From assembly GCA_002839335.1 (NCBI GenBank), contig PGXU01000016.1, positions 1 to 64,000 of the forward strand: 64,000 nucleotides of DNA, read 5' to 3'. Below are positions 22,972-53,704 of the stretch, in pieces. Source of the DNA: Spirochaetae bacterium HGW-Spirochaetae-4. GTDB lineage: Bacteria; Spirochaetota; Spirochaetia; Sphaerochaetales; Sphaerochaetaceae. Below the pieces are notes generated by a model. The model was given only the letters and a program-made list of their open reading frames with translations. It was not told where the DNA came from and searched no databases. Numbering within the stretch: the stretch's first letter is position 1; each line of letters starts with the position of its first letter. Position numbers and translations under genes: made by a program.

Positions 22972-23568
22972 ATGAAGATAATCGGATTCAATGGAAGTCC
23001 AAGGAAGACCGGGAATACCGCCGCCATCATGAAATCCCTATTGCAGGGGGCGCAAGAAGCCGGGGCTCAAGTGGAGTACATCCATCTCCCATCGTATCAT
23101 ATCGAAGGGTGCATCGGTTGCGAGCGTTGCCGGAAGGACAAGACCTGTACGCAATTCTACGACGGCATGCATCTGCTGTATCCGAAATTGATCGAGGCCG
23201 ATGGTATCATACTCGGCTCCCCCACCTACAACTACAATGTGACTCCTTGGATGAAAGCGTTCATCGACCGGTTGTACCCTTTCTTCGATTTCACCGAGCC
23301 GCGGCCGGGCCCCTATACGTCACGATTGGCGGACATGGGGAAACGGGCCCTGGTGTTCGGAGTCTGCGAGCAGGTGGACCCGAAGGAGATGGGATATACG
23401 ATCGTCTCCATGCAGGATGCGATCGCCGTCCTCGGGTATGGCATGTCCGAACCGCTGGCTTTTCCGGCCCATTTCGGGCCCCAGTCGGCCGGCAAGTCTG
23501 AAAAGGAAATGGAAAGGGCTCGGAAGGCCGGTTTCGGCCTTGTCCAGGAATTCCATGTCATAAATTGA
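22972..23568 (+). CDS. NADPH-dependent FMN reductase / iron-sulfur flavoprotein-like
   Basis: A 198-residue flavodoxin-fold protein. The FMN phosphate loop GSPRKTGNT is at residues 8-16, 'GSPTYNYNVTPWMKAFIDRL' is the second flavin contact, and 'EGCIGCERCRKDKTC' holds closely spaced cysteines of the kind that bind an Fe-S cluster in the iron-sulfur flavoproteins of anaerobes. GGAGG precedes the ATG. Likely a cytosolic electron carrier or quinone/metal reductase; partner unknown. Confidence 0.85.
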   Translation: MKIIGFNGSPRKTGNTAAIMKSLLQGAQEAGAQVEYIHLPSYHIEGCIGCERCRKDKTCTQFYDGMHLLYPKLIEADGIILGSPTYNYNVTPWMKAFIDRLYPFFDFTEPRPGPYTSRLADMGKRALVFGVCEQVDPKEMGYTIVSMQDAIAVLGYGMSEPLAFPAHFGPQSAGKSEKEMERARKAGFGLVQEFHVIN

Positions 23569-23664: not shown

Positions 23665-26019
23665 ATGCAGGAGACGAAACGGTGCATCGGTGTATTCACT
23701 GCCTCGTTGGACGATGGGTACCAATCTACGATTTGGCATGCGATAGAACAATCCGCCCGGGAACATGGATTCGGTTCCATATCTTTCCTGGGTTCGCGCC
23801 TGGGCTCGCCCATTGCTTCCGAGGCTTCGTCAAACCTGGCATACCATTTGGCGAATGTCGGGAATATCGACGGCTTGATCATCATCGCCTCCTCGTTGGC
23901 CACGTTCTTCACGTCGGTGGACTTGAAGGAGTTTTTCGCACCGTGGGCCGATTTGCCCCGGGTCTCGATCGGCATGCGGATTCCCGGAATGTCCGATGTC
24001 ATCGTCGAGGGAACCAACGGCATTTCCAGTTTGGTGGAACACCTCGTCGACGAACATGGCAGAAGGCGATTCGCGGTGATTTGCGGGCCTGGTAGTCACG
24101 ACGAGGCTATCAGCAGGTTGCATGCCTGTAGGAACATCCTGGAGCAACGGGAAATTCCCCTGGACGAACGGATGGTGATACCGGGTTCCTTTACCCAAGA
24201 ATCGGGTACCCATGCGGTACGTATCCTTTGTGAATCTGGAATTCCCTTCGATGCACTCGTATGTCTGAACGACCGGATGGCCCAGGGAGCCTTGGAGGAA
24301 TTGTCGCAGCGGGGCATCCGGGTCCCGGACGATGTCTCGGTAATCGGATTCGACGGAATAGAATCCTCCAGGTATTCCTTGCCACCACTCACCACCGTCG
24401 TACAGCCAATGCATGAATTGGGTGTTACCGCAGTGGATATGTTGGAGCGGTTGATGCAAGGCGGGCGGGAGGAGCATATTTCCCTTTCCTGTTCTCCATT
24501 GGTCAGGGAATCCTGCGGATGTGGCCCCAGGTTCAACTATACACCGAATTTCCACGAGATTCCCCGGTATGCAAGCAGTTCCGAACACCAGGCGATGTTC
24601 GATCTCATGATCCTCATACGCAAGGGCGACTACAACGGTCTGATCATGCGACTCAATCGGGCTATCGATACCACCGGGACCGAGAATGGGTCGGTCGATC
24701 GTTGGAACGAATACCTGTCGATCGTGGAACACCATTGCGAGAACACTCCATTGGCTGGAGACATGTCGCTTTCGACCCTCATGGGAGCCGCCCGTGTGTT
24801 TACCAACGAAAAGATCGGACGGTACCAGGCGGCGAAACGGATAGCCGCCGAGTCGTCGTTCGAGACGTTGCGCCAAGTGAGTGCGATGTTGGCGGGAGCA
24901 TTCGAACTTGCCGATATGTTTTCCAACCTGAAGAGGGGATTGCAGCTATTTGGCCTCGATCGTGGATATCTGGTAGTCTTCAACAGGAAAAAGGGGAAAG
25001 CCCGATTGTTGATGAGTGTCGAGGATGAACAGCGCTCCGACCCATCTTTTTCGCAAGAGTTCGATTATGCGCAACTGTTGCCTGCCCGAATCGGGCCTGT
25101 ATGGAGACAAGGCCAATGGATACTCATGCCGTTGGTATACAACGATGAACCCTTGGGATATCTGATAATTCCCATCGGAATCGTTCTGCCGGCACTCTAC
25201 GATGTCCTGCAGGAACAGATTTCAAGCAACTTGAAGGGGACATTGCTGCTTGAGCAGATCAGATCCCATGAGAGGACGTTGGCGGAGCAGGTGGAATTGC
25301 GGACCAAGGACCTGATCCGTACGAACCGTGAATTGTCCAATGAAATCAAACGCCGCACAGAACTCGAACATGAGGTCATGGAGATATCCAGCAAGACCAT
25401 GGAACGGATCGGACAGGATTTGCACGATGACCTGTGCCAACATCTGTTGGGGATCTCGCTACTCGCATCTTCAGTCAAGAAGACTGTGTTGGACCACCAT
25501 CAGGTACAACCGGAAACCCTGGAGCGCATCAGTTCGCTGCTTACCGAATCCATCGGCAAGATAAAGACCATATCCCGTGGTTTGTTACCCTTGGAGATGG
25601 ATTCGCATACATTCGCGCAACGGTTGGAGGCCTTGGTCGGAGATACGAAACGGTATGCCCATGTGGATATATCGGTCAAGATCGATTCCGCGTTCGAAAT
25701 AGCCGATGCCGATAGGGCCTTGCATATATTCAGGATTATCCAGGAAGCCCTGACCAATGCTATCCGTCATTCCAATGCACACCATATCGTGATCTCATTA
25801 CAGGTACAGCAAGATTCGGACGGGAGCGTCCAACGGATTGCTTCCATTGCGGACGATGGTGTCGGTTTGCCCAAACAGCTTCACAAGAATGGCTTGGGTT
25901 TGCGTATCATGCGAAACAGGGCGAGTATGGCAAAAGCCGAATTGAGTATCGATTCCTCCTCCGGAGGAACGGTGGTTCGAATACGGGTTCCAGGGAGAAA
26001 CGATGAGAAATCAAATTGA
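23665..26019 (+). CDS. Cytoplasmic histidine kinase with LacI-type ligand-binding domain
   Basis: A 784-residue sensor kinase with an unusual domain order. Residues 5 to about 285 match the sugar-binding domain of LacI/GalR regulators ('DALVCLNDRMAQGALEELSQRGIRVPDDVSVIGFDG', 'TTVVQPMHELG'), but no helix-turn-helix precedes it. A GAF-like region (about 400-540), a coiled coil, a HisKA_3 box (QDLHDDLCQH, His587) and an ATPase domain (N-box near 693, DDGVGLP near 729) follow. There is no signal peptide or membrane segment. It overlaps the next response-regulator gene by 17 bases. An ATG at 23638 is an alternative start. Probably senses an intracellular sugar. Confidence 0.88.
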   Translation: MQETKRCIGVFTASLDDGYQSTIWHAIEQSAREHGFGSISFLGSRLGSPIASEASSNLAYHLANVGNIDGLIIIASSLATFFTSVDLKEFFAPWADLPRVSIGMRIPGMSDVIVEGTNGISSLVEHLVDEHGRRRFAVICGPGSHDEAISRLHACRNILEQREIPLDERMVIPGSFTQESGTHAVRILCESGIPFDALVCLNDRMAQGALEELSQRGIRVPDDVSVIGFDGIESSRYSLPPLTTVVQPMHELGVTAVDMLERLMQGGREEHISLSCSPLVRESCGCGPRFNYTPNFHEIPRYASSSEHQAMFDLMILIRKGDYNGLIMRLNRAIDTTGTENGSVDRWNEYLSIVEHHCENTPLAGDMSLSTLMGAARVFTNEKIGRYQAAKRIAAESSFETLRQVSAMLAGAFELADMFSNLKRGLQLFGLDRGYLVVFNRKKGKARLLMSVEDEQRSDPSFSQEFDYAQLLPARIGPVWRQGQWILMPLVYNDEPLGYLIIPIGIVLPALYDVLQEQISSNLKGTLLLEQIRSHERTLAEQVELRTKDLIRTNRELSNEIKRRTELEHEVMEISSKTMERIGQDLHDDLCQHLLGISLLASSVKKTVLDHHQVQPETLERISSLLTESIGKIKTISRGLLPLEMDSHTFAQRLEALVGDTKRYAHVDISVKIDSAFEIADADRALHIFRIIQEALTNAIRHSNAHHIVISLQVQQDSDGSVQRIASIADDGVGLPKQLHKNGLGLRIMRNRASMAKAELSIDSSSGGTVVRIRVPGRNDEKSN

Positions 26020-26665
26020 ATTCGTGGTTGTCGATGACCATCCGTTGTTCCGTCAGGGGTTGGTGAGTGTCATAGGAAACAATGATCGCTATACGGTGAT
26101 CGGTGAAGCCAGGACGATTTCCGAAGCGCTTGGGATTATCGGGACACGTCCGCCCCATGTCCTCCTGGTCGATATTGCCTTGCAACAGGAGAATGGGCTT
26201 GAACTGGTCAAGCAAGTGAAGGCCATGTATCCCAAGATCCTTCAGATTGTCGTCTCCATGTACGATGAGATCATCTACGCTTCAAGTGCCCTGAAATCCG
26301 GTGCACGTGGATATGTCATGAAGCAAGAGGCTGCCGAGACCCTGCTGGAGGCGATCGACACGGTCTTGAAGGGAAAGATCTACCTTTCCGCCACCATGCA
26401 TGAACGGATGTTGGATTCCATGTTCGCCCAAGACTCGAATGCCATGGAGGTCGACCCCATCGTCCAGTTGAGCGTGCGTGAATTGGAGGTCTTGCGGTTG
26501 ATCGGTCAAGGATTCGGTGTCTCGGAAATTGGGGAAACCCTGAACCTTTCGGTAAAGACTGTCAACGTGTATCGTGACAATATTCGTCATAAGCTTTCCA
26601 TTGCCGATGCCGGTGAATTGCGGAAATTCGCGATCAAATGGGCGAGGGGCAATGAATCGTACTAG
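26003..26665 (+). CDS. NarL/FixJ-family response regulator
   Basis: A 220-residue two-component regulator. The receiver domain has the acidic pair (Asp11, Asp12), the phosphorylation site Asp57 in 'HVLLVDIALQQ', and Lys107 in 'GARGYVMK'. The C-terminal LuxR-type helix-turn-helix covers about 155-215 ('LSVRELEVLRLIGQGFGVSEIGETLNLSVKTVNVY'). AGGGAGAAACG precedes the ATG, and the gene overlaps the kinase gene, so it is surely its partner. Its probable targets are the sugar ABC transporter and GH3 genes that follow. Confidence 0.93.
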   Translation: MRNQIEFVVVDDHPLFRQGLVSVIGNNDRYTVIGEARTISEALGIIGTRPPHVLLVDIALQQENGLELVKQVKAMYPKILQIVVSMYDEIIYASSALKSGARGYVMKQEAAETLLEAIDTVLKGKIYLSATMHERMLDSMFAQDSNAMEVDPIVQLSVRELEVLRLIGQGFGVSEIGETLNLSVKTVNVYRDNIRHKLSIADAGELRKFAIKWARGNESY

Positions 26666-26682
26666 GACAAACGTCCTAGTAC
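26659..26682. promoter_or_regulatory. Perfect 10-bp inverted repeat after the response regulator
   Basis: GTACTAGGAC (26659-26668) and GTCCTAGTAC (26673-26682) flank a 4-base AAAC loop and overlap the stop codon (26663-26665). No U-run follows, so it is a poor terminator; an operator or an mRNA-stabilising stem fits better. The sugar-binding protein starts 155 bases downstream. Confidence 0.6.
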
Positions 26683-26837
26683 AAGTCAAGACAAATGCCC
26701 AATGGCGTCCTGCTCGGATCGATTGTAGCATTCGGTTGTGGGGAGAAGCATAGACCATTGCTCCCTGGATACATTGGTTCTTGCGCTATCCAATGAATCG
26801 ATATCCGCAAGGCATGCACAGGTAAGGAGGAATTGAA

Positions 26838-28178
26838 ATGAAACGGAAACTGGGTCTCGTGGTTTGTGTTCTGTTGATCTTGAGCATGGGCTTGCCCATA
26901 TTCGCGGCAGGACAACAAGAGAGTGGTCCGAAAGTGATCAACGTGTGGAGCTTCACCGACGAAGTGCCGAAAATGTTGGAGAAATATAAGGAGTTGCATC
27001 CTGATTTCGATTATGAGATCAAATCCACCATAATCGCTACGACTGACGGTGCCTACCAGCCTGCACTCGACCAGGCACTGGTAAGCGGAGGAGCCGATGC
27101 ACCGGATATCTACTGTGCGGAGAGTGCATTCGTCCTCAAGTACACCCAAGGCGATGCGGCACAATTCGCGGCACCCTACAAGAGCCTCGGCATTTCGGTC
27201 GATGCACTCTTGAAGGAAGCCGATATTGCGCAGTACACCGTCGATATCGGAACGAACAAAAGCGGGGAACTGGTCGGTCTCGGTTACCAGGCGACCGGAG
27301 GCGCATTGATCTATCGCCGGTCCATAGCCAAAGCTGTTTGGGGAACCGACGATCCTGCCGTGATCAAGACCAAGGTCGGTCCGGGTTGGGAGAAGTTCTT
27401 CCAAGCCGCAGCCCAGTTGAAGGCAAAAGGCTATGGAATACTTTCCGGTGATGGAGACATTTGGCATGCTATCGAAGGTGCTTCGGAGAAGGGCTGGATC
27501 GTAGACGGCAAACTATACTTGGATCCCGATCGTGAAGCTTTCCTCGATATGGCCAAGTTGTTGAGGGACAAGGGGTACCATAACGATACCCGTGACTGGA
27601 CCGACGCATGGTTCGCGGATATGAAGGATGCGGGAGCCAAGCCCATATTCGGATTCTTTGGTCCCGCATGGTTGATCAACTATGTCATGGCCGGCAACAG
27701 CGGTGGTACTGCTCCTGGAGAAGGTACTTTTGGGGATTGGGCGGTGTGTGAACCACCGGTAGGATTCTTCTGGGGAGGTACCTGGGTACTCGCCAACAAG
27801 GATAGCAAGGTCAAGGATGTCGTAGGCGATATCATAGAGTGGATCACCCTCGACAGTTCTGAAACCGGACTCCAATACTACTGGGCGAACGGAACCCTCA
27901 ATGGACCTGGTGGAACCAAGGATACCGTTGCTTCCGGAACAGTCATGGAGAAATCCGACGGCTCGCTCGCATTCTTGGGGGGACAGGACATGTTCGACGT
28001 ATTCGTTCCCGCCGGACAATTCGCAACCGGAAGAAACAAGCACCAGTATGACGAGACCATAAACATCTACTGGCGTGACCAGGTGCGTGAATATGCGCAG
28101 GGCAACAAGACCCGTGCGGCGGCAATCGCCGAGTTCAAGCAGCAGGTCAAGGATAATCTTGCCATAGAAGCCCATTAA
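26838..28178 (+). CDS. Sugar ABC transporter substrate-binding protein
   Basis: A 446-residue family 1 extracellular binding protein. The signal peptide (about 1-24) ends in FAAGQQES. The mature protein has the usual 'INVWSFTDEVPKMLEKYKELHPDF' N-lobe and 'GADAPDIYCAES' hinge-side motif of carbohydrate-binding proteins. AAGGAGG lies 8 bases before the ATG. It heads an operon with two permeases and a GH3 glycosidase, and lies downstream of the kinase/regulator pair. No ATPase is encoded here, so a shared MsmK/MalK-type ATPase elsewhere is expected. Confidence 0.93.
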   Translation: MKRKLGLVVCVLLILSMGLPIFAAGQQESGPKVINVWSFTDEVPKMLEKYKELHPDFDYEIKSTIIATTDGAYQPALDQALVSGGADAPDIYCAESAFVLKYTQGDAAQFAAPYKSLGISVDALLKEADIAQYTVDIGTNKSGELVGLGYQATGGALIYRRSIAKAVWGTDDPAVIKTKVGPGWEKFFQAAAQLKAKGYGILSGDGDIWHAIEGASEKGWIVDGKLYLDPDREAFLDMAKLLRDKGYHNDTRDWTDAWFADMKDAGAKPIFGFFGPAWLINYVMAGNSGGTAPGEGTFGDWAVCEPPVGFFWGGTWVLANKDSKVKDVVGDIIEWITLDSSETGLQYYWANGTLNGPGGTKDTVASGTVMEKSDGSLAFLGGQDMFDVFVPAGQFATGRNKHQYDETINIYWRDQVREYAQGNKTRAAAIAEFKQQVKDNLAIEAH

Positions 28179-28299
28179 CTGAGCTTTCCGTTTGACTGGA
28201 TGCGGGCGGGCCGAATTCCGCCCGCATCGATTTTCCCGTACCACTGGTCCGGACCATACCGATCGAAACACGTCACTAGCAACTGGAGGGGTTATACTT

Positions 28300-29271
28300 A
28301 TGCGACGCAAGGGCATCAACTATGCTAAATACGGCTACATATTCTCCATACCGTTCGTAGTGACTTTTCTGATCTTTTCGCTATACCCGATTCTCTATAC
28401 GACAGTCATTGGATTCACCGATCTCAGGGGTATTGGAAGGACCGATATCAACTTCCTGGACAATCCTTTCCAGAATTTTCAGATTATCCTCACCAATGCG
28501 ACGTTCCAGAAAGCCTTGTCCAATACGGCATTGATCTGGATCATGAATTTCATTCCCCAGATGCTGGTTGCCTTCCTGTTGACCGCATGGTTCACGAACC
28601 GGCGGTTCAAGGTCCGTGGCCAAGGCATATTCAAAGTGTTGATCTACATGCCGAACATCATAACCGCAGCCACCATCGCGCTTCTGTTCTATTCTCTGTT
28701 CGGATATCCCAAAGGTCCGGTGAACGATGTGCTCATGGCATTCGGATTGACCGATGAACCTATGAATTTCCATTTGCAGAAGTGGACAGCCCGCACCGTG
28801 GTGGCTTTCATCCAGTTCTGGATGTGGTATGGGCATACGATGATAGTCCTGATCGCAGGAGTATTGGGAATCAGTCCGACGCTTTTCGAGGCTGCGGAAA
28901 TCGATGGTGCTTCAGCTCCCCAGATATTTTTTCGCATCACGTTGCCAAGGCTGAAGACCATTGTCCTCTACACCCTGGTCACCAGCATGATCGGTGGACT
29001 GCAGATGTTCGATATCCCCAAACTGTTCCTTCTCGGCGGACCGGACAGCGCCACGCTTACCACCAGCGTATTCATCTACAACCAGGCGTTCAGCGGCAGT
29101 TATCTCTACAACCGTGCGGCTGCCGCAAGCATGATCATGTTCGTCATCATCTCGATCCTCTCGGCACTGCTGTTCTTCATCCTTCGTGACAGGGATCCCG
29201 GTCGGGCACGGAGGCGGGCGCGTGAGTTGCGCAGGATCGCAAGGACCATAGATGGGGAGGTGTCGGTATGA
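28300..29271 (+). CDS. Sugar ABC transporter permease (MalF type)
   Basis: A 323-residue inner-membrane permease with about six segments. The coupling loop 'EAAEIDGASAPQIFFRITLPRL' is intact. The start at 28300 follows GGAGGGG; the frame is open further upstream to 28192, but that stretch reads as non-coding. Its stop overlaps the next permease start (ATGA). Works with the binding protein and second permease to import a sugar, probably an oligosaccharide given the GH3 gene downstream. Confidence 0.93.
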   Translation: MRRKGINYAKYGYIFSIPFVVTFLIFSLYPILYTTVIGFTDLRGIGRTDINFLDNPFQNFQIILTNATFQKALSNTALIWIMNFIPQMLVAFLLTAWFTNRRFKVRGQGIFKVLIYMPNIITAATIALLFYSLFGYPKGPVNDVLMAFGLTDEPMNFHLQKWTARTVVAFIQFWMWYGHTMIVLIAGVLGISPTLFEAAEIDGASAPQIFFRITLPRLKTIVLYTLVTSMIGGLQMFDIPKLFLLGGPDSATLTTSVFIYNQAFSGSYLYNRAAAASMIMFVIISILSALLFFILRDRDPGRARRRARELRRIARTIDGEVSV

Positions 29272-30116
29272 AGATGGGTATGCTCGCCTCCCGCAACAGT
29301 ACGAAGGCAGTCATCTATATCGTGTGTATCTTCTTGGCGTTGATAAGCATATTTCCCTTCTGGATCATGTTCATGAACGCAACACGGAGTACCTTCGAGA
29401 TCCAACAGAATTCCGTGGCATTCTGGCCTTCGACATTCCTTTCCAGCAATTGGAAGATCCTGGTTGGAAAAAGCTTCAACCCGGTGACTGGGTTCATGAA
29501 TTCCATGCTGGTCTCAACCGGTGCCACGTTGGGGGCGGTCTACTTTTCCTCGCTTACCGCATACGCATTGGTCGCATATAGCTGGAAACTGAGGCAACCA
29601 TTCTTCACGTTCATCATGGCTATCCTCATGATACCTGCCCAAGTGTCGAGTATCGGCTTTTATCAGTTCATGTACCGTATCCACTGGACAAACAGCCTGT
29701 GGCCACTGATTTTGCCGGCGATAGCGACCCCGGCGATGGTGTTCTTCATGCGCCAATATCTTATGGCAACCCTGTCGTTGGAAATTGTCGATTCGGCGCG
29801 AATCGATGGTGCGGGGGAGTTCTTTACATTCAATCGGATCATCCTGCCGATCATGAAGCCGGCGATAGCCACGCAGGCGATCTTTTCCTTCGTATTCAGC
29901 TGGAACAACTTGTTCTTGCCATTGATCCTTCTTACTGACAACAAGAAGTATACGATGCCCATAATGGTGAGCCTGTTGAGAGGCGACATCTACAAGACGG
30001 AATACGGTTCGGTATACCTGGGACTTGCCCTTACGGTACTGCCGTTGTTCGTTATCTATTTCATGCTTTCGAAATATATCATTGCCGGGGTTGCGCTAGG
30101 TGCGTTGAAGGAGTGA
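29268..30116 (+). CDS. Sugar ABC transporter permease (MalG type)
   Basis: A 282-residue permease with about six segments and the coupling loop 'VDSARIDGAGEFFTFNRIILPIMKP'. GGGGAGG precedes the ATG, which overlaps the stop of the first permease. The GH3 glycosidase starts 4 bases after its stop. Forms the membrane channel with the preceding permease. Confidence 0.93.
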   Translation: MKMGMLASRNSTKAVIYIVCIFLALISIFPFWIMFMNATRSTFEIQQNSVAFWPSTFLSSNWKILVGKSFNPVTGFMNSMLVSTGATLGAVYFSSLTAYALVAYSWKLRQPFFTFIMAILMIPAQVSSIGFYQFMYRIHWTNSLWPLILPAIATPAMVFFMRQYLMATLSLEIVDSARIDGAGEFFTFNRIILPIMKPAIATQAIFSFVFSWNNLFLPLILLTDNKKYTMPIMVSLLRGDIYKTEYGSVYLGLALTVLPLFVIYFMLSKYIIAGVALGALKE

Positions 30117-30120
30117 GGGT

Positions 30121-32481
30121 ATGCGGACGAATTATGAACGGGCAGTAGGGCTCCTGAAGGAAATGAACTTGGAAGAGAAGGTCGCCCAACTTTGTTCCGC
30201 TTGGCTGGAAATCTCGGAAGATGGCAGCTTTTCGGTAAAGGAAACGGCATTCCGGACCGATCGTCCCGCACATGACCGGGAAATGGTGCTGGGCAATGGA
30301 ATCGGACAACTCACGCGACCATATGGTACACGTTCCTATGCCCCCAGAAAGGTGGCAAGGGGAATCAATGAGATACAGCGGTATTTGACCGGTCGTACCC
30401 GTCTCGGTATTCCGGCGATGCTCCACGAGGAATGTCTCGCAGGAGCCATGGTCCAGGATGCTACGATATTTCCCTGCAGCATCAACTATGGAGCCACCTG
30501 GGACACCTCGCTCATGTATCGGATATCGCGGGCAATCGGGAGGGAGTTGGCTTCACTTGGTATCCACGAAGGGTTGGCCCCGGTCTTGGACGTTGCGCGG
30601 GATGCCCGTTGGGGACGATTGGAGGAAACGTTCGGTGAGGATCCGTACCTTGTAGGTTCGATGGGGATTTCGTATGTGAAGGGGCTGCAAGGTCCCGACA
30701 GGTCTCCGATCTCAACGCTCAAGCATTTTGTCGGACATTCCTCGAGCGAAGGTGGAAGAAACCATGCTCCCGTCCATATCGGACAGCGCGAATTGTCCAA
30801 TACATTCGCCCTGCCTTTCGAGATGGTGGTGAAAGCGGCTGCCCCGGGGGCAGTCATGCCGGCATACCATGATATAGATGGCGAGCCCTGTTCATCCTCC
30901 CACTCACTGATCACAGGATTGCTGAAGAATACCTGGGGATTCGACGGCTTGGTGGTTGCCGATTATGAAGCTCCCATGCAACTGTTTGCCGACCACAAGG
31001 TGGCTCGCGATGTCGCCGAAGCAGCTGCACTCGCATTGAAGGCAGGGATGGACATGGAGCTGCCGAGCAGCACGACCTTCAAGGACGGCCTTTTGGAGGC
31101 CGTCAGCCGCGGATTGGTGGAAATGGCTGAGGTGGATGCCTCTGTGCTTAAGATCCTACTGGAAAAATACCGGTTGGGTTTGTTCGACCATCCGTTCATT
31201 GAAATCGATGCGATCGAACTCGGTTCATCCGAAAACCATGGCTTGGCTGTCGAGGTTGCGGAGAAATCGATGGTTCTCCTGAAGAATACCGGCGTACTCC
31301 CCTTGCCACAGGCTGGTTCGATCGCTTTGATCGGTCCTTTGGCGGACCACCCCTATGCCATGCTCAGCGGGTATTCGGCTCCGGTCCATCTGCAAGGTTC
31401 GAGCAATCCTGAGGACACGGTGCCCGCACGGGCCTTGTCGATCAGGAAAGCGTTGGAATCGGTTCGGGGGAAAGCGACCATCCGGTATGGACAGGGATGC
31501 AAAATCTACGACAATTCGTTCAAGGATGCCGTGTATTTTCCTGGCGATGTAAGCGAGAATGAGCAGAATTCGCTCCAGTTGCCCAGTAGCGACACCAGCG
31601 GAATCCATTCTGCCGTAGCATTGGCCAAAGAGTCGGATGTAGCTGTGGTTGTGGTTGGGGATCTAGTCGGGTTGTTCCAACATGGAACAGTCGGGGAAGG
31701 CTCCGATGTCTCCTCGCTCAAGTTGCCCGGTGTACAACAACAATTGCTCGATGCGGTCTTGGAAACAGGGAAGCCGGTTGTCGTTGTCTTGGTAAGCGGA
31801 CGACCATATGAATTGGGAAATGCATTGGAGGGAGCAGAGGCAATCTTGGCGACCTGGTTGCCGGGAGAGGGAGGTGGTGAGGCTACCGCACGGATTCTAT
31901 TCGGACTTGCGGTACCGGGTGGGAAGACGCCGCTCTCGTTTCCAAAGACTGCCGGGGCGATGCCACATTTCTACAACTACTCATTCAAGGCTCCGGGATT
32001 ACCGAAACAGAGGCAATTCGAATCGATGTTTCCCTTCGGTTACGGATTGAGTTATACCCAATTCTCATACGGGGATTGTTCTGTTGATGCCCTGACGGTG
32101 TCGAATGACGGTACCTTGCGGGTATCAGCCATCATTGGGAATACGGGAACATATTCCGGTGATGAAGTTGTCCAACTCTACGTGCGGGACTGCCAGGCCT
32201 CGATCGTTCGGCCAGTCAAGGAATTGAAGGGGTTCGCCCGAGTATCCCTTGTCCCGGGAACACGACGTCGGGTTGTATTCGCGTTGCCGGTGGACATGCT
32301 CTCGTTCATTGCCGACGGAACAACGAGGATAGTGGAACCGGGGGCATTCGAGATCATGATCGGTCGATCCTCCCGTGATATCGTCTGGTCACAAGAAGTC
32401 GAGGTGCTCGGTCCCGAACGGGTGCTGCCACACGACTGGCGGTTCCAGACAGATGTGACAATAGAAGAGATTATCGGGTGA
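30121..32481 (+). CDS. Glycoside hydrolase family 3 (beta-glucosidase/xylosidase type)
   Basis: A 786-residue GH3 enzyme. The N-terminal TIM-barrel holds 'EETFGEDPYLVGSMG' and the nucleophile Asp281 in 'GFDGLVVADYEA'; the alpha/beta sandwich domain follows, and the C-terminal fibronectin III-like domain has 'SFPKTAGAMPHFYN' and 'FPFGYGLSYTQFSYG'. No signal peptide is seen, so it acts inside the cell on the oligosaccharide imported by the preceding ABC transporter, releasing beta-linked monosaccharides. Those are candidates for the ligand of the LacI-domain kinase upstream. Confidence 0.92.
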   Translation: MRTNYERAVGLLKEMNLEEKVAQLCSAWLEISEDGSFSVKETAFRTDRPAHDREMVLGNGIGQLTRPYGTRSYAPRKVARGINEIQRYLTGRTRLGIPAMLHEECLAGAMVQDATIFPCSINYGATWDTSLMYRISRAIGRELASLGIHEGLAPVLDVARDARWGRLEETFGEDPYLVGSMGISYVKGLQGPDRSPISTLKHFVGHSSSEGGRNHAPVHIGQRELSNTFALPFEMVVKAAAPGAVMPAYHDIDGEPCSSSHSLITGLLKNTWGFDGLVVADYEAPMQLFADHKVARDVAEAAALALKAGMDMELPSSTTFKDGLLEAVSRGLVEMAEVDASVLKILLEKYRLGLFDHPFIEIDAIELGSSENHGLAVEVAEKSMVLLKNTGVLPLPQAGSIALIGPLADHPYAMLSGYSAPVHLQGSSNPEDTVPARALSIRKALESVRGKATIRYGQGCKIYDNSFKDAVYFPGDVSENEQNSLQLPSSDTSGIHSAVALAKESDVAVVVVGDLVGLFQHGTVGEGSDVSSLKLPGVQQQLLDAVLETGKPVVVVLVSGRPYELGNALEGAEAILATWLPGEGGGEATARILFGLAVPGGKTPLSFPKTAGAMPHFYNYSFKAPGLPKQRQFESMFPFGYGLSYTQFSYGDCSVDALTVSNDGTLRVSAIIGNTGTYSGDEVVQLYVRDCQASIVRPVKELKGFARVSLVPGTRRRVVFALPVDMLSFIADGTTRIVEPGAFEIMIGRSSRDIVWSQEVEVLGPERVLPHDWRFQTDVTIEEIIG

Positions 32482-43108: not shown

Positions 43109-44239
43109 ACTCCCCAAATCCTTTTGGTAGATGCGGTACGTTTTGGATCTTCGCAGACCGAGTTTTTCCAAGGCATTGCGGATATTCCAATTGTCCTCGA
43201 GTATATAATTCGCCTCGATGAGCGGGTCCTTGGGTCCCAAAGCCTTGTAGAGACTGTGGTAGAGCAGTACGTCCAGACCCATACCATGGTACTGGGGCAA
43301 GACTCCCAATCCGAAGAGCCGGTACCGTCGCATGGAGCCTTTGCGTCTCAGATACACCAGGAAGCCGAAGGGCAGCAGACGCCCGTGGATTGCCTGGAAG
43401 ATTGCATTGGGATCGGGAAATCCCAAGGCATATCCCACCGGAAGGCCGGCATCCTGCACAAACCAGACTGCTTGCGGATCAAGTATCGGTTTGAGCCGTT
43501 TCACCATGTCTTGCATGACCGGAAGTGCTACGGGGACATATCCCCAGTTGTTCGCCAGGGCCGTATTGGTTATGTGCCAGATGTGCCGTGCATCCTCGAG
43601 CAATCGACTCGGATCGAGCGGTCGCACCGACAGATCGGGTTTCCGCGAAAGCAATGTGGACGTGAACCGTTCGATCCTATCGGGAATCGTATACCCTGAT
43701 CGGGTATCGGCTTCGTAGGCATAGAGGTCCTTGATCTTAGCCATGCCCGCAGCGTGCATCATGCCGTGGTAGTATGACGGATTGTACGGAGCCATGAGCA
43801 CCGGTAAGGAATCGTATCCTTCAAGGAGGAATCCCCAACTCTCCGCGATGGGATTGATAGGACCCCGCATAGATGACATGCCATGCCCGCGTATCCATGC
43901 CTCGGCTGCATCTAGCAGAAGATTTGAGACCCGGGTGTCCTCGATACATTCGAAGGAGCCGAAGAAGCCCACCGATTCCCCGGTATGCGCCATATGGCTC
44001 GCATCGATGAACACCAGGATCCGACCCGCCACGACTCCATCGTGTATCGCCAGATACAGGATGTGTTCGTTCGCCTGCAAGACCACATTGTTCGAGGCGA
44101 TGTAACCGCTTTTCTCGTCGTGCCACAACGGAGGTGCCCAGAACCTGTCGTGTCGGTAGAGCTGTCTCGGAAAGAGTACGAATGCCCGCATCGCCTTGGC
44201 ATCGGCCACAATCTGGATGTGCATGGATAATCTTATCAT
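43094..44239 (-). CDS. Large GNAT-type N-acetyltransferase-like protein
   Basis: A 381-residue protein. An N-terminal part ('RAFVLFPRQLYRHDRFWAPPLWHDEKSGY') and a C-terminal region resembling a second acetyltransferase fold ('LFGLGVLPQYHGMGLDVLLYHSLYKAL ... YILEDNWNIRNALEKLG') are typical of a conserved family annotated as GNAT proteins. The GNAT acetyl-CoA loop is seen as 'LPQYHGMGLD'. An alternative start is ATG at 44224. Substrate unknown. Confidence 0.75.
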   Translation of the reverse strand: MIRLSMHIQIVADAKAMRAFVLFPRQLYRHDRFWAPPLWHDEKSGYIASNNVVLQANEHILYLAIHDGVVAGRILVFIDASHMAHTGESVGFFGSFECIEDTRVSNLLLDAAEAWIRGHGMSSMRGPINPIAESWGFLLEGYDSLPVLMAPYNPSYYHGMMHAAGMAKIKDLYAYEADTRSGYTIPDRIERFTSTLLSRKPDLSVRPLDPSRLLEDARHIWHITNTALANNWGYVPVALPVMQDMVKRLKPILDPQAVWFVQDAGLPVGYALGFPDPNAIFQAIHGRLLPFGFLVYLRRKGSMRRYRLFGLGVLPQYHGMGLDVLLYHSLYKALGPKDPLIEANYILEDNWNIRNALEKLGLRRSKTYRIYQKDLGSSPRE

Positions 44240-44340
44240 GGTTATGGTGTTTGCAAATTATTTTTTTGACAAATTCTCCTTGGTTTTTGACATATACATT
44301 GTACAATAGACCAAAACAATATGGGAGGGTGTGGACTACC

Positions 44341-46959
44341 ATGGGGAAGAGAACTGTTGCCGTTACGATTTGTATGTTGCTTGTTGCCATAGGGTTGTCC
44401 GGTTCCATACCGTTGCTCGACTTGTCGGTGCAACAAGCATTGATTGCCACGGATGCCCTTGCGACCTCTGGCAATGGAGCCTTCGTAACCAGTACACCAT
44501 CGGGAAAAGTCGTAGCCTACCAAGGCAATGACGGCCGCATCCATGTGGGGAGGGAAGAGGCGTCCGGCCGGTGGACCACCGCACCGCTTCATGCCGTCCA
44601 AGGCGGCTATGTCCAGGGAATCGTTTCCCATAGGAACCGTGTGACAGTCGGTTACTCCGCAAACGGCCAGATTTTCACCATCACATCCAATGACGCGGGC
44701 AAATCCTTCAATCCTCCTGTCCCGGTCACCCAATCGAGGCAGGCTGCTTCGATCCAGGATATGGTGACCGATTCGAAAGGAACCATCCATATGGTGTTCC
44801 ATAGGCATGACAGCTACTGGGACTACAATTATGCCAAGTCTGTCGACGGTGGCTATTACCAGGTGAAGAATGGATTCACCAAATACACCGATTCGGGCTC
44901 GACCGGCTATTCGGGAAACTTGCGTGCGGCCCATGGCAACTTGTACACGGTGTATCAGGACAACAACGATGGGTTCGCGGTGAAACTCTCGGTTTCCAAG
45001 GACAACGGATCCTCATGGAACACTACACGGATCGCACCTTCGTCCGGAGGCCGGTTAGGACTGGCCGTCGATCCCCAGGATCCCGACCTGCTTTATATCG
45101 CCTCCTACAACAAGGATGGATTGACGATCCTGAGGGTCCGCAACGCTACGGGCGGTTCGCCCGAATTTTGGCCTGTCCATGGGGATGGCACCGTGCTCCC
45201 CACCGATACCAGCGCAGTTACCGTCCACATAGCAACCGCTGACGACGGAACGGTCGCGGCCATCTATTTGAATCCGATCACCGGTTCCTACACCTCGCTG
45301 TCCAGCTCCGATGCCGGAGAGACGTGGGAAAAGAGTATCCTGCTGACATTGGTTGAGCCCAAGAATTTCCAATGGATCGCCGATTTGGAAAGCTTCGGCA
45401 ACGATTTCTTCTTTGCCAGAACCGATGGCAAAGGCTCGGTGTTGCTCCATGGCGCCGAAGGTCGCATGACGGCGTCGGCAGTATCGGCCGGTAACGATAT
45501 GGTCGTCTACACTCCCGATTCCAATGGCATGGTCGAGATTCCCTCCGTGGAGGATCCGTTCGGTGTCGAATTGGGCAGTAGTTTTCCCATGGTGATGTTC
45601 GAGGTTCCCGAAGCCGGACAGTATCGCATCACCCATCTCACCCAAGCTTCCATACCCCTCTACTATTCACTCCACGATCCCTTCAACAAGGGCGATCTGA
45701 CACTCGCTGAGAATTATGATGGCAATACACTCCATGATGCGATCGAGTCCCGTCTTGAGCCGGGAATTGTGTATCTGCTTGTATTGGGTGTTCTCGACGA
45801 CGCTCATGCGGGAAAGACCGTGGAATTCACCATGGAATCGATGGGTACGGATACTGGTATTCCTCCTGTCGTTCCTGCACCGGCACCCGCAGTGGTCGGT
45901 GGACAACAACCGAAGCCGAGTCAGACTGAAGTTCCGGTAGACAGGGTGGGGGCAGGGCACTTCGCATCGTTTGCGCTGAGTAGGACCGGTTTCCTTGTGG
46001 GTGCCGGCTTGAACCAATTCGGTCAGATGGCGGATGGATCGACCAGTACCAAGAAGACCTTTTCCCCGTTGCGTTCCTCCATTTCCGATATCGCCGCGGG
46101 CTTCGCTCATGTCTTGTACATTGCCGATACGGGAATCCTGTATGGCGCTGGAAGGAATGAGGATTACCAACTCGGCGACGGAACGCGGAGCAACAGCTTG
46201 TCCTTCAAGAGGATCGCCGACAACGTCGTGAGCGTTGCGGCCGGATACGGGCATTCGTTGTATGTCCAACGGGATGGCAGTGTGTGGGCTGTCGGGCAGA
46301 ATGACGTGGGGCAGCTCGGGGACGGTTCGAAGACGACACGGACCGCACCGGTCAAGATTGCCAAGGATGGCGCCAGGGTGTTCTCCAGCTTGAGCAAGAC
46401 ATCGTTCCTGCTCGACCATGAAGGCAACCTGTACGGATTCGGGGACAACTCGTACGGCCAGCTCGGACTTGGACACAAGAACGATGTGGTCGAACCTACC
46501 TTCATAACCGATAAGGTGAAGACTGTCGCACCGGGACGCAACCATACGGTGATCCTGAAGCAGGATGGAAGTGTTTGGACTTCCGGTGACAACGGACAGG
46601 GTCAACTGGGTACCGGCAACACCACCGGTTCCACCCGCTGGATATCGGTCGCCTCGAATATCTCCGATATAGCCGCGGGATTCTACAATTCATGGATACT
46701 CGCAGATACCGGTGACTTGAAGGTCGCGGGCAGCAACAGGTATGGACAATACGGAATCGGCACAACGGCGAACACCTCCACCAGCGTGGGTTTTGTTTTC
46801 GTACTTGACGATGTCGCTGATGTGGCTGCGGGGCGGGACCATGCGGTGGTGTTGAAAAAGGACGGGTCTGTCTGGACCAGCGGTTTGAATGAACAGTCGC
46901 AATTGGGCGATGCCTCGCAGGGCTTCAGGATGGTGTGGAAGCAAGTATTCGAATTCTAG
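44341..46959 (+). CDS. Secreted double beta-propeller protein: BNR plus RCC1
   Basis: An 872-residue exported protein with an unusual fusion. After a signal peptide (about 1-30) come Asp boxes (SNDAGKSF, SKDNGSSW, SSDAGETW) of a sialidase-like propeller, a beta-sandwich-like region (about 400-510), a Pro/Ala/Gly linker, then seven RCC1-type repeats from about residue 533 (each with a 'VAAG.. H....DGSVW..G.N..GQLGDG' pattern), enough for one whole seven-bladed propeller. The frame is open upstream of ATG 44341, but that stretch is not coding-like; GGGAGG lies 12 bases before the ATG. Likely surface binding or glycan role; function unknown. Confidence 0.8.
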   Translation: MGKRTVAVTICMLLVAIGLSGSIPLLDLSVQQALIATDALATSGNGAFVTSTPSGKVVAYQGNDGRIHVGREEASGRWTTAPLHAVQGGYVQGIVSHRNRVTVGYSANGQIFTITSNDAGKSFNPPVPVTQSRQAASIQDMVTDSKGTIHMVFHRHDSYWDYNYAKSVDGGYYQVKNGFTKYTDSGSTGYSGNLRAAHGNLYTVYQDNNDGFAVKLSVSKDNGSSWNTTRIAPSSGGRLGLAVDPQDPDLLYIASYNKDGLTILRVRNATGGSPEFWPVHGDGTVLPTDTSAVTVHIATADDGTVAAIYLNPITGSYTSLSSSDAGETWEKSILLTLVEPKNFQWIADLESFGNDFFFARTDGKGSVLLHGAEGRMTASAVSAGNDMVVYTPDSNGMVEIPSVEDPFGVELGSSFPMVMFEVPEAGQYRITHLTQASIPLYYSLHDPFNKGDLTLAENYDGNTLHDAIESRLEPGIVYLLVLGVLDDAHAGKTVEFTMESMGTDTGIPPVVPAPAPAVVGGQQPKPSQTEVPVDRVGAGHFASFALSRTGFLVGAGLNQFGQMADGSTSTKKTFSPLRSSISDIAAGFAHVLYIADTGILYGAGRNEDYQLGDGTRSNSLSFKRIADNVVSVAAGYGHSLYVQRDGSVWAVGQNDVGQLGDGSKTTRTAPVKIAKDGARVFSSLSKTSFLLDHEGNLYGFGDNSYGQLGLGHKNDVVEPTFITDKVKTVAPGRNHTVILKQDGSVWTSGDNGQGQLGTGNTTGSTRWISVASNISDIAAGFYNSWILADTGDLKVAGSNRYGQYGIGTTANTSTSVGFVFVLDDVADVAAGRDHAVVLKKDGSVWTSGLNEQSQLGDASQGFRMVWKQVFEF

Positions 46960-51448: not shown

Positions 51449-53704
51449 TTGGGTGCCAGACCTACTGCTTGGACTACAAAAGGCTTCACTCGGATTGTTC
51501 TGTTGATCGCCGTCCCCCTGTTGGTTGGAATCGTTTGGATCGCAACCGAGCCGTTGCGGAACACTATCAAGCCTTCATCGGAAGATGTTGCTTCTCCGAC
51601 AACGTCAGTTGGACTCAGCCTGAACGAGCGTGCCTATCTGGATGCTCTTGGTCCTGTACGCATGGCGGTCGATCCCGATTGGGAGCCGTATGAAGTGATT
51701 GCCGCTGGAAAATATGTCGGGATCGCTGCTGATCTGATCAAGCTCATCTCCACCCGTCTTGGCATGGAAATCGAATTGGTGGTCACCAGGGATTGGGATG
51801 AAAGCCTCGAAGCCTCCCGTGATGGAAGGGTCCATATGTTGGCTTTCTTGAACCAGACTCCCGAACGGGAGACCTGGTTGTATTTCACCGAGCCGTATTT
51901 CAAGGACCAGAACGTACTGATCACACGCATTGAACACGACTATATCGCGGATGCAGCGGGATTGTCTGGTGAGACCATCGCACTGCCGTCGGGCACCAGC
52001 ATCCAGGAACGGTTGCAGGACGAGTACCCGAACCTTGGGATAATGGTGGTCAGGAACGAGGCGGAGGCTTTCGAGGCTGTCGAGAACCGTACCGCCGACA
52101 TGGCTATCAGGTCGCTCACCATGGCCGCCTACACGATCAGGAAGGATGGGTTGTTCAACCTCAAGGTGGCTGGGCAATTGCCTGGATTCGAGAACCAGTT
52201 CCGCATCGGGGTAGTGAAGTCGGAACCGATGTTGCGTACGATCCTGAACAAGGGGATAGCCACCATAACTGCGCAAGACGTTCAGCAGGCGATCAACAAC
52301 CATTTGCCGATCGAAATGCGCACAGAAGTCAACTACAACTTGATCTTATGGCTCTCGAGCATATTTTTCCTGCTTCTGGCCGGCGGTTTGTTGTGGAATT
52401 ATTTCCTGAGGCGGATCAACCGCCAGTTGCATGAACAGGATGTCGCCCTCAAGCAATCGCAGGAGATGATGGGGTATATCATAGAGCACAACAAAAGTGC
52501 TGTGGCGGTATTGGACCATCAGTTGCGGTTCAATTATGTGAGTCAAAAATACCTCGAGTTGTTCAAGTTGCAGGGCAGCCTTATCCATAGGTTCCTCCAC
52601 GAGGTGCATCCTGGTCTGAACGACTATTGGTACCAGGTACTGCAAAAGGCTTTGGCAGGCCAGGTCGCCAACGGGGAGGAGGACCTGTTCGTCCACGGAG
52701 ACGGGACATCGGATTGGCTTCGTTGGGAGACACGGCCCTGGTTCCTGGTAGACGGTACAATCGGCGGTATCATCATCTATGCCGAGAATATCAGTGGACG
52801 CAAGGAGGCGGAATCGGCCTTGCAGGCGAGTGAGGAAAAATTCCGCCTGCTCACCGAATATACCAGCGATGTCATCTGGATACTCAACATGCGATCACGC
52901 CGGTTCAGCTATATCAGTCCTTCGGTCGAACAATTGCGTGGGTATTCCGTGGAAGAGGCGATGGGGCAGGACCTGCAGGACTCGCTCGCCGCCGATTCCT
53001 ATGCCATGATCATGGAGGCGTTCCCAGCCGAGTTGCGGGAGTTCTTGCACAATCCGAACAATCCGAAGACCCATTACGCCCAGGTGCGGCAACCGTGCAA
53101 GGACGGTTCTGTGATCTGGGTCGAATTCTCCATGAAATACCGGTTGAACAAGACCGGCGAGCTCGAGGCGATCGGTGTCAGCCGCAATATCGAGGAACGC
53201 AAGCGCGCGGAGGAACGTATCCGGTTCCTCAGTTACCATGACCAGCTCACCGGCTTGTACAACCGCAGGTATTACGAGGAACTGTTGCCCACGATCGATG
53301 TCCCGGATAACTATCCGTTGTCCCTGGTGATGGCGGATGTGAACGGTTTGAAGCTTGCCAACGATACCCAAGGCCATCAGGTAGGTGATGCCATGCTCAC
53401 GGCCGTTGCCGACATGTTGCAGAAGATGTGCAAGCAGCACGATCTGGTTGCCCGTATCGGGGGCGACGAGTACGTCCTGCTTATGCCGAATACCCGTGCC
53501 GATGAAGTCGAACAGCGGATTTCGGATGTGGATACCCATCTCAGGAACCATTCGGTCGGATCCTTGCGGCTTTCGGTTTCCTTTGGATGGGCGACGAAGG
53601 ATTCTACCGAGAAATCACTTCCGGAAATTTTCAAGGAAGCGGAGGATATGATGTATACTCGTAAGCGTCTGGAGCGTTCGAGCAGGATATTCTGCCAGGA
53701 TTGA
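51449..53704 (+). CDS. Diguanylate cyclase with periplasmic binding-protein sensor and PAS domains
   Basis: A 751-residue sensor enzyme that makes cyclic di-GMP. After a first membrane segment (about 13-33) comes a periplasmic family 3 binding-protein domain (about 60-290), a second membrane segment (about 297-318), two PAS domains and a C-terminal GGDEF domain with active site GGDEY (near 671). The upstream inhibitory site reads KQHD instead of the usual RxxD, so product inhibition may be weak. The TTG start at 51449 is 6 bases after GGAGG. Ligand is probably an amino acid or small solute. Confidence 0.88.
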   Translation: MGARPTAWTTKGFTRIVLLIAVPLLVGIVWIATEPLRNTIKPSSEDVASPTTSVGLSLNERAYLDALGPVRMAVDPDWEPYEVIAAGKYVGIAADLIKLISTRLGMEIELVVTRDWDESLEASRDGRVHMLAFLNQTPERETWLYFTEPYFKDQNVLITRIEHDYIADAAGLSGETIALPSGTSIQERLQDEYPNLGIMVVRNEAEAFEAVENRTADMAIRSLTMAAYTIRKDGLFNLKVAGQLPGFENQFRIGVVKSEPMLRTILNKGIATITAQDVQQAINNHLPIEMRTEVNYNLILWLSSIFFLLLAGGLLWNYFLRRINRQLHEQDVALKQSQEMMGYIIEHNKSAVAVLDHQLRFNYVSQKYLELFKLQGSLIHRFLHEVHPGLNDYWYQVLQKALAGQVANGEEDLFVHGDGTSDWLRWETRPWFLVDGTIGGIIIYAENISGRKEAESALQASEEKFRLLTEYTSDVIWILNMRSRRFSYISPSVEQLRGYSVEEAMGQDLQDSLAADSYAMIMEAFPAELREFLHNPNNPKTHYAQVRQPCKDGSVIWVEFSMKYRLNKTGELEAIGVSRNIEERKRAEERIRFLSYHDQLTGLYNRRYYEELLPTIDVPDNYPLSLVMADVNGLKLANDTQGHQVGDAMLTAVADMLQKMCKQHDLVARIGGDEYVLLMPNTRADEVEQRISDVDTHLRNHSVGSLRLSVSFGWATKDSTEKSLPEIFKEAEDMMYTRKRLERSSRIFCQD

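Follow-up and report, generated by a model that had tools for sequence, protein, structure and literature searches.

The window analysed here is a 64,000-nucleotide stretch of Spirochaetae bacterium HGW-Spirochaetae-4 (contig PGXU01000016.1, positions 1 to 64,000). It holds a gene cluster encoding a sensor kinase, its partner regulator, components of a sugar ABC transporter and a glycosidase (Table 1). The kinase ATG at 23665 is preceded by AAGGAG, which resembles a ribosome-binding site. The regulator matches the Pfam families Response_reg (1e-21) and GerE (1e-13). No ABC ATPase gene is present among these operon genes, and a shared ATPase for the transporter is presumably encoded elsewhere. 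The gene layout thus agrees with the initial annotation, in which a regulator gene overlapping that of the kinase was followed by a sugar ABC transporter and a cytoplasmic GH3 glycosidase. Elsewhere in the window, positions 44134-46959 encode a 941-aa protein with RCC1 repeats.

Table 1. Coordinates of the kinase, its domains and the associated genes and sites in the window.
Feature	Position	Strand	Remarks
Sensor kinase, 784 aa	23665..26019	+	LacI-type ligand domain, SCGC hinge, helical/GAF-like middle, coiled coil, HisKA_3, HATPase
LacI/GalR ligand-binding domain, residues ~6-281	23680..24507	+	
SCGC motif at the LacI-domain exit, residues 283-286	24511..24522	+	
Middle region	24523..25257	+	Helices, then GAF-like alpha/beta part, residues ~415-531; weak evidence
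HisKA_3 dimerisation/phosphoacceptor domain	25402..25590	+	His587 codon 25423-25425, motif LHDDLCQ
HATPase_c domain	25720..25992	+	N, G1 and G2 boxes present
LuxR/NarL-type response regulator	26003..26665	+	Overlaps kinase gene by 17 bases
24-bp inverted repeat GTACTAGGACAAACGTCCTAGTAC	26659..26682	.	Proposed operator of the regulator
Conserved palindrome core TAGGACAAACGTCCTA	26663-26678	.	175 bp before the SBP gene
Possible second, degenerate palindrome copy	26688..26703	.	~24 bp downstream; by eye, tentative
Sugar ABC solute-binding protein (SBP)	26838..28178	+	Weakly similar to cellobiose-binding protein; kept in orthologous operons
Sugar ABC permease 1	28192..29271	+	BPD_transp_1; true start probably 28300
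Sugar ABC permease 2	29268..30116	+	BPD_transp_1
GH3 glycosidase without signal peptide	30121..32481	+	Nearest beta-xylosidases/alpha-L-arabinosidases; Pfam 5e-73

The N-terminus of the kinase matches the Pfam families Peripla_BP_3 (3.3e-31) and Peripla_BP_1 (6e-13) over residues 23-300, numbered on an 800-aa translation extended by 16 codons ahead of the ATG. Its best solved relatives are LacI-family ligand domains, with E-values of 6e-33 for ancestral LacI and 1e-25 for PurR. Residues 5-285 therefore fall inside the LacI family, as the initial annotation had proposed. The same annotation had described the domain as lacking a DNA-binding headpiece, and this also holds: the LacI-type domain begins at residue 6, and because the preceding gene ends at 23568, only 97 bp upstream, there is no room for a helix-turn-helix (HTH) headpiece. 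Without one, the kinase is not a LacI-family repressor. Four residues (R151, N202, D203 and D230), which align with effector-contacting positions of LacI and PurR, are invariant in 14 of 14 HisKA_3-class relatives. At the C-terminus, Pfam matches to HisKA_3 (1.8e-7) and HATPase_c (1.5e-12), together with the N and G boxes, bear out the annotated phosphoacceptor domain with His587 and its ATPase domain.

Between the LacI-type and HisKA_3 domains, Pfam gave no match. The cysteines of the SCGC motif are retained in 62-63 of the 66 proteins compared that carry the same N-terminal half (the LacI-SCGC-GAF cassette), whatever their output, and their role could be redox, metal-related or structural. 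Weak evidence underlies the label GAF-like for the middle region, as GAF_2 was matched in 4 of 40 relatives with a best E of 0.026 and the window protein has no GAF match in Pfam. AlphaFold2 models from four sequences were of low confidence (pLDDT 54 for the full length, 56 for the middle region) and were used for the order of elements, which is GAF-like in the middle region, rather than for the fold. Foldseek searches with the middle-region model returned mostly GAF domains as top matches, none with E <= 0.001. The GAF-like part also contains the most hydrophobic 19-residue stretch of the kinase (residues 497-515, Kyte-Doolittle 1.95). Homologues of this stretch are often polar, with values down to -0.17, and the region is predicted as a strand followed by a helix in low-confidence models. 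A membrane segment at this position was considered and, in view of these polar homologues, rejected as not credible. No signal peptide was found in the kinase, which should be cytosolic, in line with the signal-peptide-free and membrane-free protein described initially.

Relatives were found by a genome scan and by a survey of Spirochaetota with the middle region as query, and neighbouring genes in other genomes were labelled with HMMs of the proteins encoded in the window, a subset of the labels being checked against Pfam. This yielded 14 distinct HisKA_3-type proteins from five Spirochaetota families, plus a fragment (L002), and the HisKA_3-type proteins form a single clade in a tree of the LacI and middle regions (SH-aLRT 99). 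An HDDLCQ or HDELCQ motif, the N and G boxes and an adjoining receiver protein are present in all of these relatives. The idea that the kinase is an isolated oddity was discarded in view of this recurrence. The initial annotation had looked to other genomes for a LacI-domain/HisKA_3 fusion next to sugar ABC genes, and the survey indeed found the fusion, with its LuxR-type regulator, beside sugar-ABC or xylosidase genes: such genes adjoin the kinase-regulator pair in 13 of the 14 loci that carry it. The order kinase-regulator-SBP-permease-permease-GH3 is shared by L001, L002, L003, L132, L133, L134, L135 and L171, the order SBP-permeases-GH3-kinase-regulator by L136 and L137, and a GH52 gene adjoins the regulator in L139, L140 and L147. 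The operon also occurs in a distant family (f11). A second HisKA_3-class kinase of one genome (L150, 8562-11095, in G357) is paired with a receiver alone that carries no HTH domain. Its neighbourhood contains no transporter or glycoside hydrolase matches and no intergenic palindrome, and this system has possibly been rewired.

Alignment of the gaps between the regulator and SBP genes revealed a palindrome with diverged flanks. In L132, the possible second copy, identified tentatively by eye, is a near-perfect palindrome, TAGGCATTTGCCTA. Six operon-bearing genomes (G000, G261, G386, G326, G357 and G399) each contain a single exact match to the strict form, TAGGAYAAAYRTCCTA, always in the regulator-SBP gap, and G224, a genome of the same genus without the kinase-regulator system, has none. 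A looser form, TAGG-N8-CCTA, was tested on relatives that had not been used for its discovery. In L135, L136, L137, L139, L147 and L171 it occurs in intergenic sequence, 74-131 bp upstream of the gene for the SBP or GH52, with a chance of occurrence per region of 0.0006-0.012 as estimated from shuffles. L140 has no local site of this form. The genome to which L140 belongs (G263) contains a single match to the AA-centred TAGGNNNAANNNCCTA, 122 bp ahead of an SBP-permease-permease operon that is unlinked to the kinase locus. The proteins of this operon share 82-87% identity with their orthologues in the linked transporter of G194. G194 itself has another match 44 bp before a GH3 gene. The looser pattern also matches elsewhere in these genomes, several times in or near unrelated genes, and these matches look like chance. 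A general enrichment of TAGG-N8-CCTA was not seen, as a reversed control pattern was mostly commoner. A role as a terminator was rejected, since the palindrome has no T-run and moves with the transporter genes. Because the site stays with the transporter, and not with the gene for the regulator, it likely acts in transporter transcription, and we infer that the co-conserved regulator is what binds it. Common descent of the related operons means that the sites do not count as independent events, and most of the weight lies with the diverged families and with the unlinked transporter of G263. The conserved palindrome upstream of transporter genes adds support to the earlier proposal that the regulator controls import.

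As a whole, we interpret the locus as a cytosolic two-component system that reads an imported xylan-derived sugar and switches on the transporter and glycosidase genes via the palindrome, and assign this reading a probability of about 0.72. The ABC system would import xylo-oligosaccharides, from which the cytosolic GH3 enzyme, or GH52 in some relatives, would free xylose. The LacI-type domain, which we expect to bind sugar, would close on xylose or a short xylo-oligosaccharide, and this binding would alter kinase activity through a path running from the SCGC hinge over the helical/GAF segment and the coiled coil to the HisKA_3 domain. His587 would then phosphorylate the LuxR-type regulator. 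The regulator would bind the TAGG-N8-CCTA palindrome, perhaps at two copies ~24 bp apart, and activate the transporter-glycosidase genes; the sign of the loop, activation rather than repression, is assumed.

The identity of the sugar is suggested by the enzymes. The GH3 protein is nearest to beta-xylosidases (PDB 7zb3, 3e-192; NCBIfam, 2e-228), and the NCBIfam xylosidase/arabinosidase family is clearly its nearest, although its 760 bits fall short of the curated cut-off of 1050. The same circuit could instead serve cello-oligosaccharides or mixed beta-glucosides, a reading suggested by the only solved relative of the SBP, a cellobiose-binding protein with a weak match (3.5e-12), and by strong matches of the GH3 protein to beta-glucosidases as well. 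We regard it as rather unlikely, given that beta-xylosidases score 644 bits against 388 bits for beta-glucosidases and that xylose isomerase (xylA) is found in 11 of the 11 genomes tested. GH52 is a beta-xylosidase family (PMC7830863), and its position beside the regulator in three relatives likewise points to xylo-oligosaccharides. The ligand is thus probably xylose or a xylo-oligosaccharide.

The other alternatives concern the parts of the circuit rather than its substrate. The palindrome might be the site of a different regulator, such as a separate LacI- or GntR-type repressor, with the kinase-regulator pair acting elsewhere, and the organism's own genome does encode many LacI-family proteins. 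Co-conservation of the site with the pair across families, its absence from G224 and its persistence at the transporter when this is unlinked leave such an arrangement a low probability. Still less probable is a kinase in which the LacI domain is vestigial or provides a secondary input, and the GAF-like part or the CGC cysteines receive the main signal (redox, metal or nucleotide). Retention of SCGC regardless of output fits this idea, and GAF domains are often sensors of small molecules. The operon context, however, is carbohydrate, and the pocket residues, invariant in the kinase clade, vary by class: position 230 is asparagine in 18 of 18 AraC-type cassette members, as expected for a ligand pocket under selection. 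Least tenable of all, and very nearly dismissed, is a membrane-bound or exported kinase whose LacI domain reads periplasmic sugar as other binding-protein sensors do. The hydropathy peak at residues 497-515 speaks for it, but the stretch is polar in homologues and has a predicted strand-helix structure, and a single segment there would separate the LacI domain from the kinase domain across the membrane without an export signal.

The proposed cytosolic sugar sensor belongs to a broad family of intracellular sensors that is apparently undescribed. In Spirochaetota and in a single Bacillota sample, other proteins join the cassette to MCP, GGDEF, GGDEF-EAL, EAL and HD-GYP outputs, and further to SpoIIE, PAS-LuxR, pseudokinase-AraC and HisKA kinases with receiver, Hpt or SpoIIE parts. 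R151 and D203 are kept in 66 of the 66 cassette proteins compared. By hydropathy, most of them have no candidate membrane helix, and a few reach maxima of 1.8-1.95. In the tree of the LacI and middle regions, two or more changes on well-supported branches are needed to explain the MCP outputs. The middle region was detected in 70 of 393 Spirochaetota genomes and in 8 of 299 genomes from the phylum of a Paenibacillus, with one weak match among 198 genomes from the phylum of a Salegentibacter and none in 148 genomes from the phylum of a Desulfobacteraceae MAG. We lean slightly towards the view that the cassette is a general intracellular carbohydrate receptor that steers transcription, swimming and second messengers in spirochaetes and some other bacteria.

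Individual members illustrate the range of outputs. A paralogue in the genome studied here (L082, 40-3318, G000:C135; 1092 aa) is the one other member found there, with LacI, middle, degenerate kinase and AraC parts, and it adjoins a gene that resembles a polygalacturonase by eye. In L170 (7694-11347), the cassette, an apparently full HisKA-type kinase (by score) and an AraC domain form one chain; this protein sits at the base of the pseudokinase-AraC clade and is a possible intermediate. The protein at L169 (3014-6826) joins the cassette to a HisKA kinase, a receiver and a SpoIIE phosphatase, and that at L166 (2179-4668) is fused directly to SpoIIE. The LacI-middle-MCP fusions (L113, 385-2610; L129, 131-2650; L144, 8807-11269; L148, L149, L152, L154 and L160) lack a signal peptide and any clear membrane helix, and appear to be soluble chemoreceptors that may read intracellular sugar. 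The Bacillota sample contributed fusions to HD-GYP (L206, 8199-10598), PAS-GGDEF-EAL (L212, 7841-11323) and EAL (L213, 8413-11790). Outside both phyla, plasmid pDEIPE01 of Deinococcus peraridilitoris encodes a LacI-middle-GGDEF-EAL protein (DEIPE_RS22570; L228, 3947-6988) whose alignment with the kinase extends through the middle region. A protein of the more usual kind, with a binding-protein-type sensor on a cyclase (SBP_bac_3-PAS-PAS-GGDEF), is encoded at 51449-53704 of the window.

Several known systems resemble the kinase in part. LacI/GalR repressors share its ligand-domain family and pocket residues and read cytosolic sugar, but the kinase has no HTH headpiece and acts through a HisKA_3 kinase and a separate LuxR-type regulator. 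Escherichia coli XylR and Bacillus subtilis AraR combine a LacI-type ligand domain with an AraC-type or GntR-type HTH, respectively; they are one-component DNA binders rather than kinases, and we know of no GAF-like middle in them. With NarL/UhpB-type kinases it shares the HisKA_3 and HATPase domains and a partner LuxR-type regulator, and its NCBIfam matches, such as UhpB and NarQ, are below cut-off. The HisKA_3 kinases named here are membrane proteins, whereas the input of the window kinase is a cytosolic LacI domain.

Binding proteins are coupled to two-component systems in XylFII-LytS, LuxP-LuxQ and TorT-TorS (PMC6321045) and in CuaDSR (PMC10384115). In all of these a bilobal binding-protein fold controls a histidine kinase, and XylFII and CuaDSR have sugar uptake genes under their control. 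Their binding protein, however, is separate and extracytoplasmic and their kinase is in the membrane, whereas here the domain is part of a soluble kinase and of the LacI-repressor type; with no credible membrane helix, the kinase falls outside that group. LacI-like domains on GGDEF, EAL and HD-GYP proteins have been listed without function, in a PBP clan called periplasmic (PMC8846402). The cassette proteins differ in that they show neither a signal peptide nor a clear membrane helix and have the SCGC-GAF linker in common, whether the output is of the kinase, chemotaxis, c-di-GMP or DNA-binding kind, and they offer a hypothesis for such sensor domains on c-di-GMP enzymes and chemoreceptors.

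Within the full text of open-licence papers, no LacI-HisKA_3 kinase was found described. We regard the kinase as a variant of two-component sugar sensing that is neither a LacI repressor nor a binding-protein-coupled membrane kinase. Its phosphorelay output could reach unlinked operons, as in G263, and the six strict sites together with the unlinked transporter of that genome make the regulon prediction directly testable. The cited binding-protein-coupled kinases read their ligand outside the cytoplasm, whereas a soluble LacI-type kinase would read the sugar that has actually been imported, as LacI repressors do.
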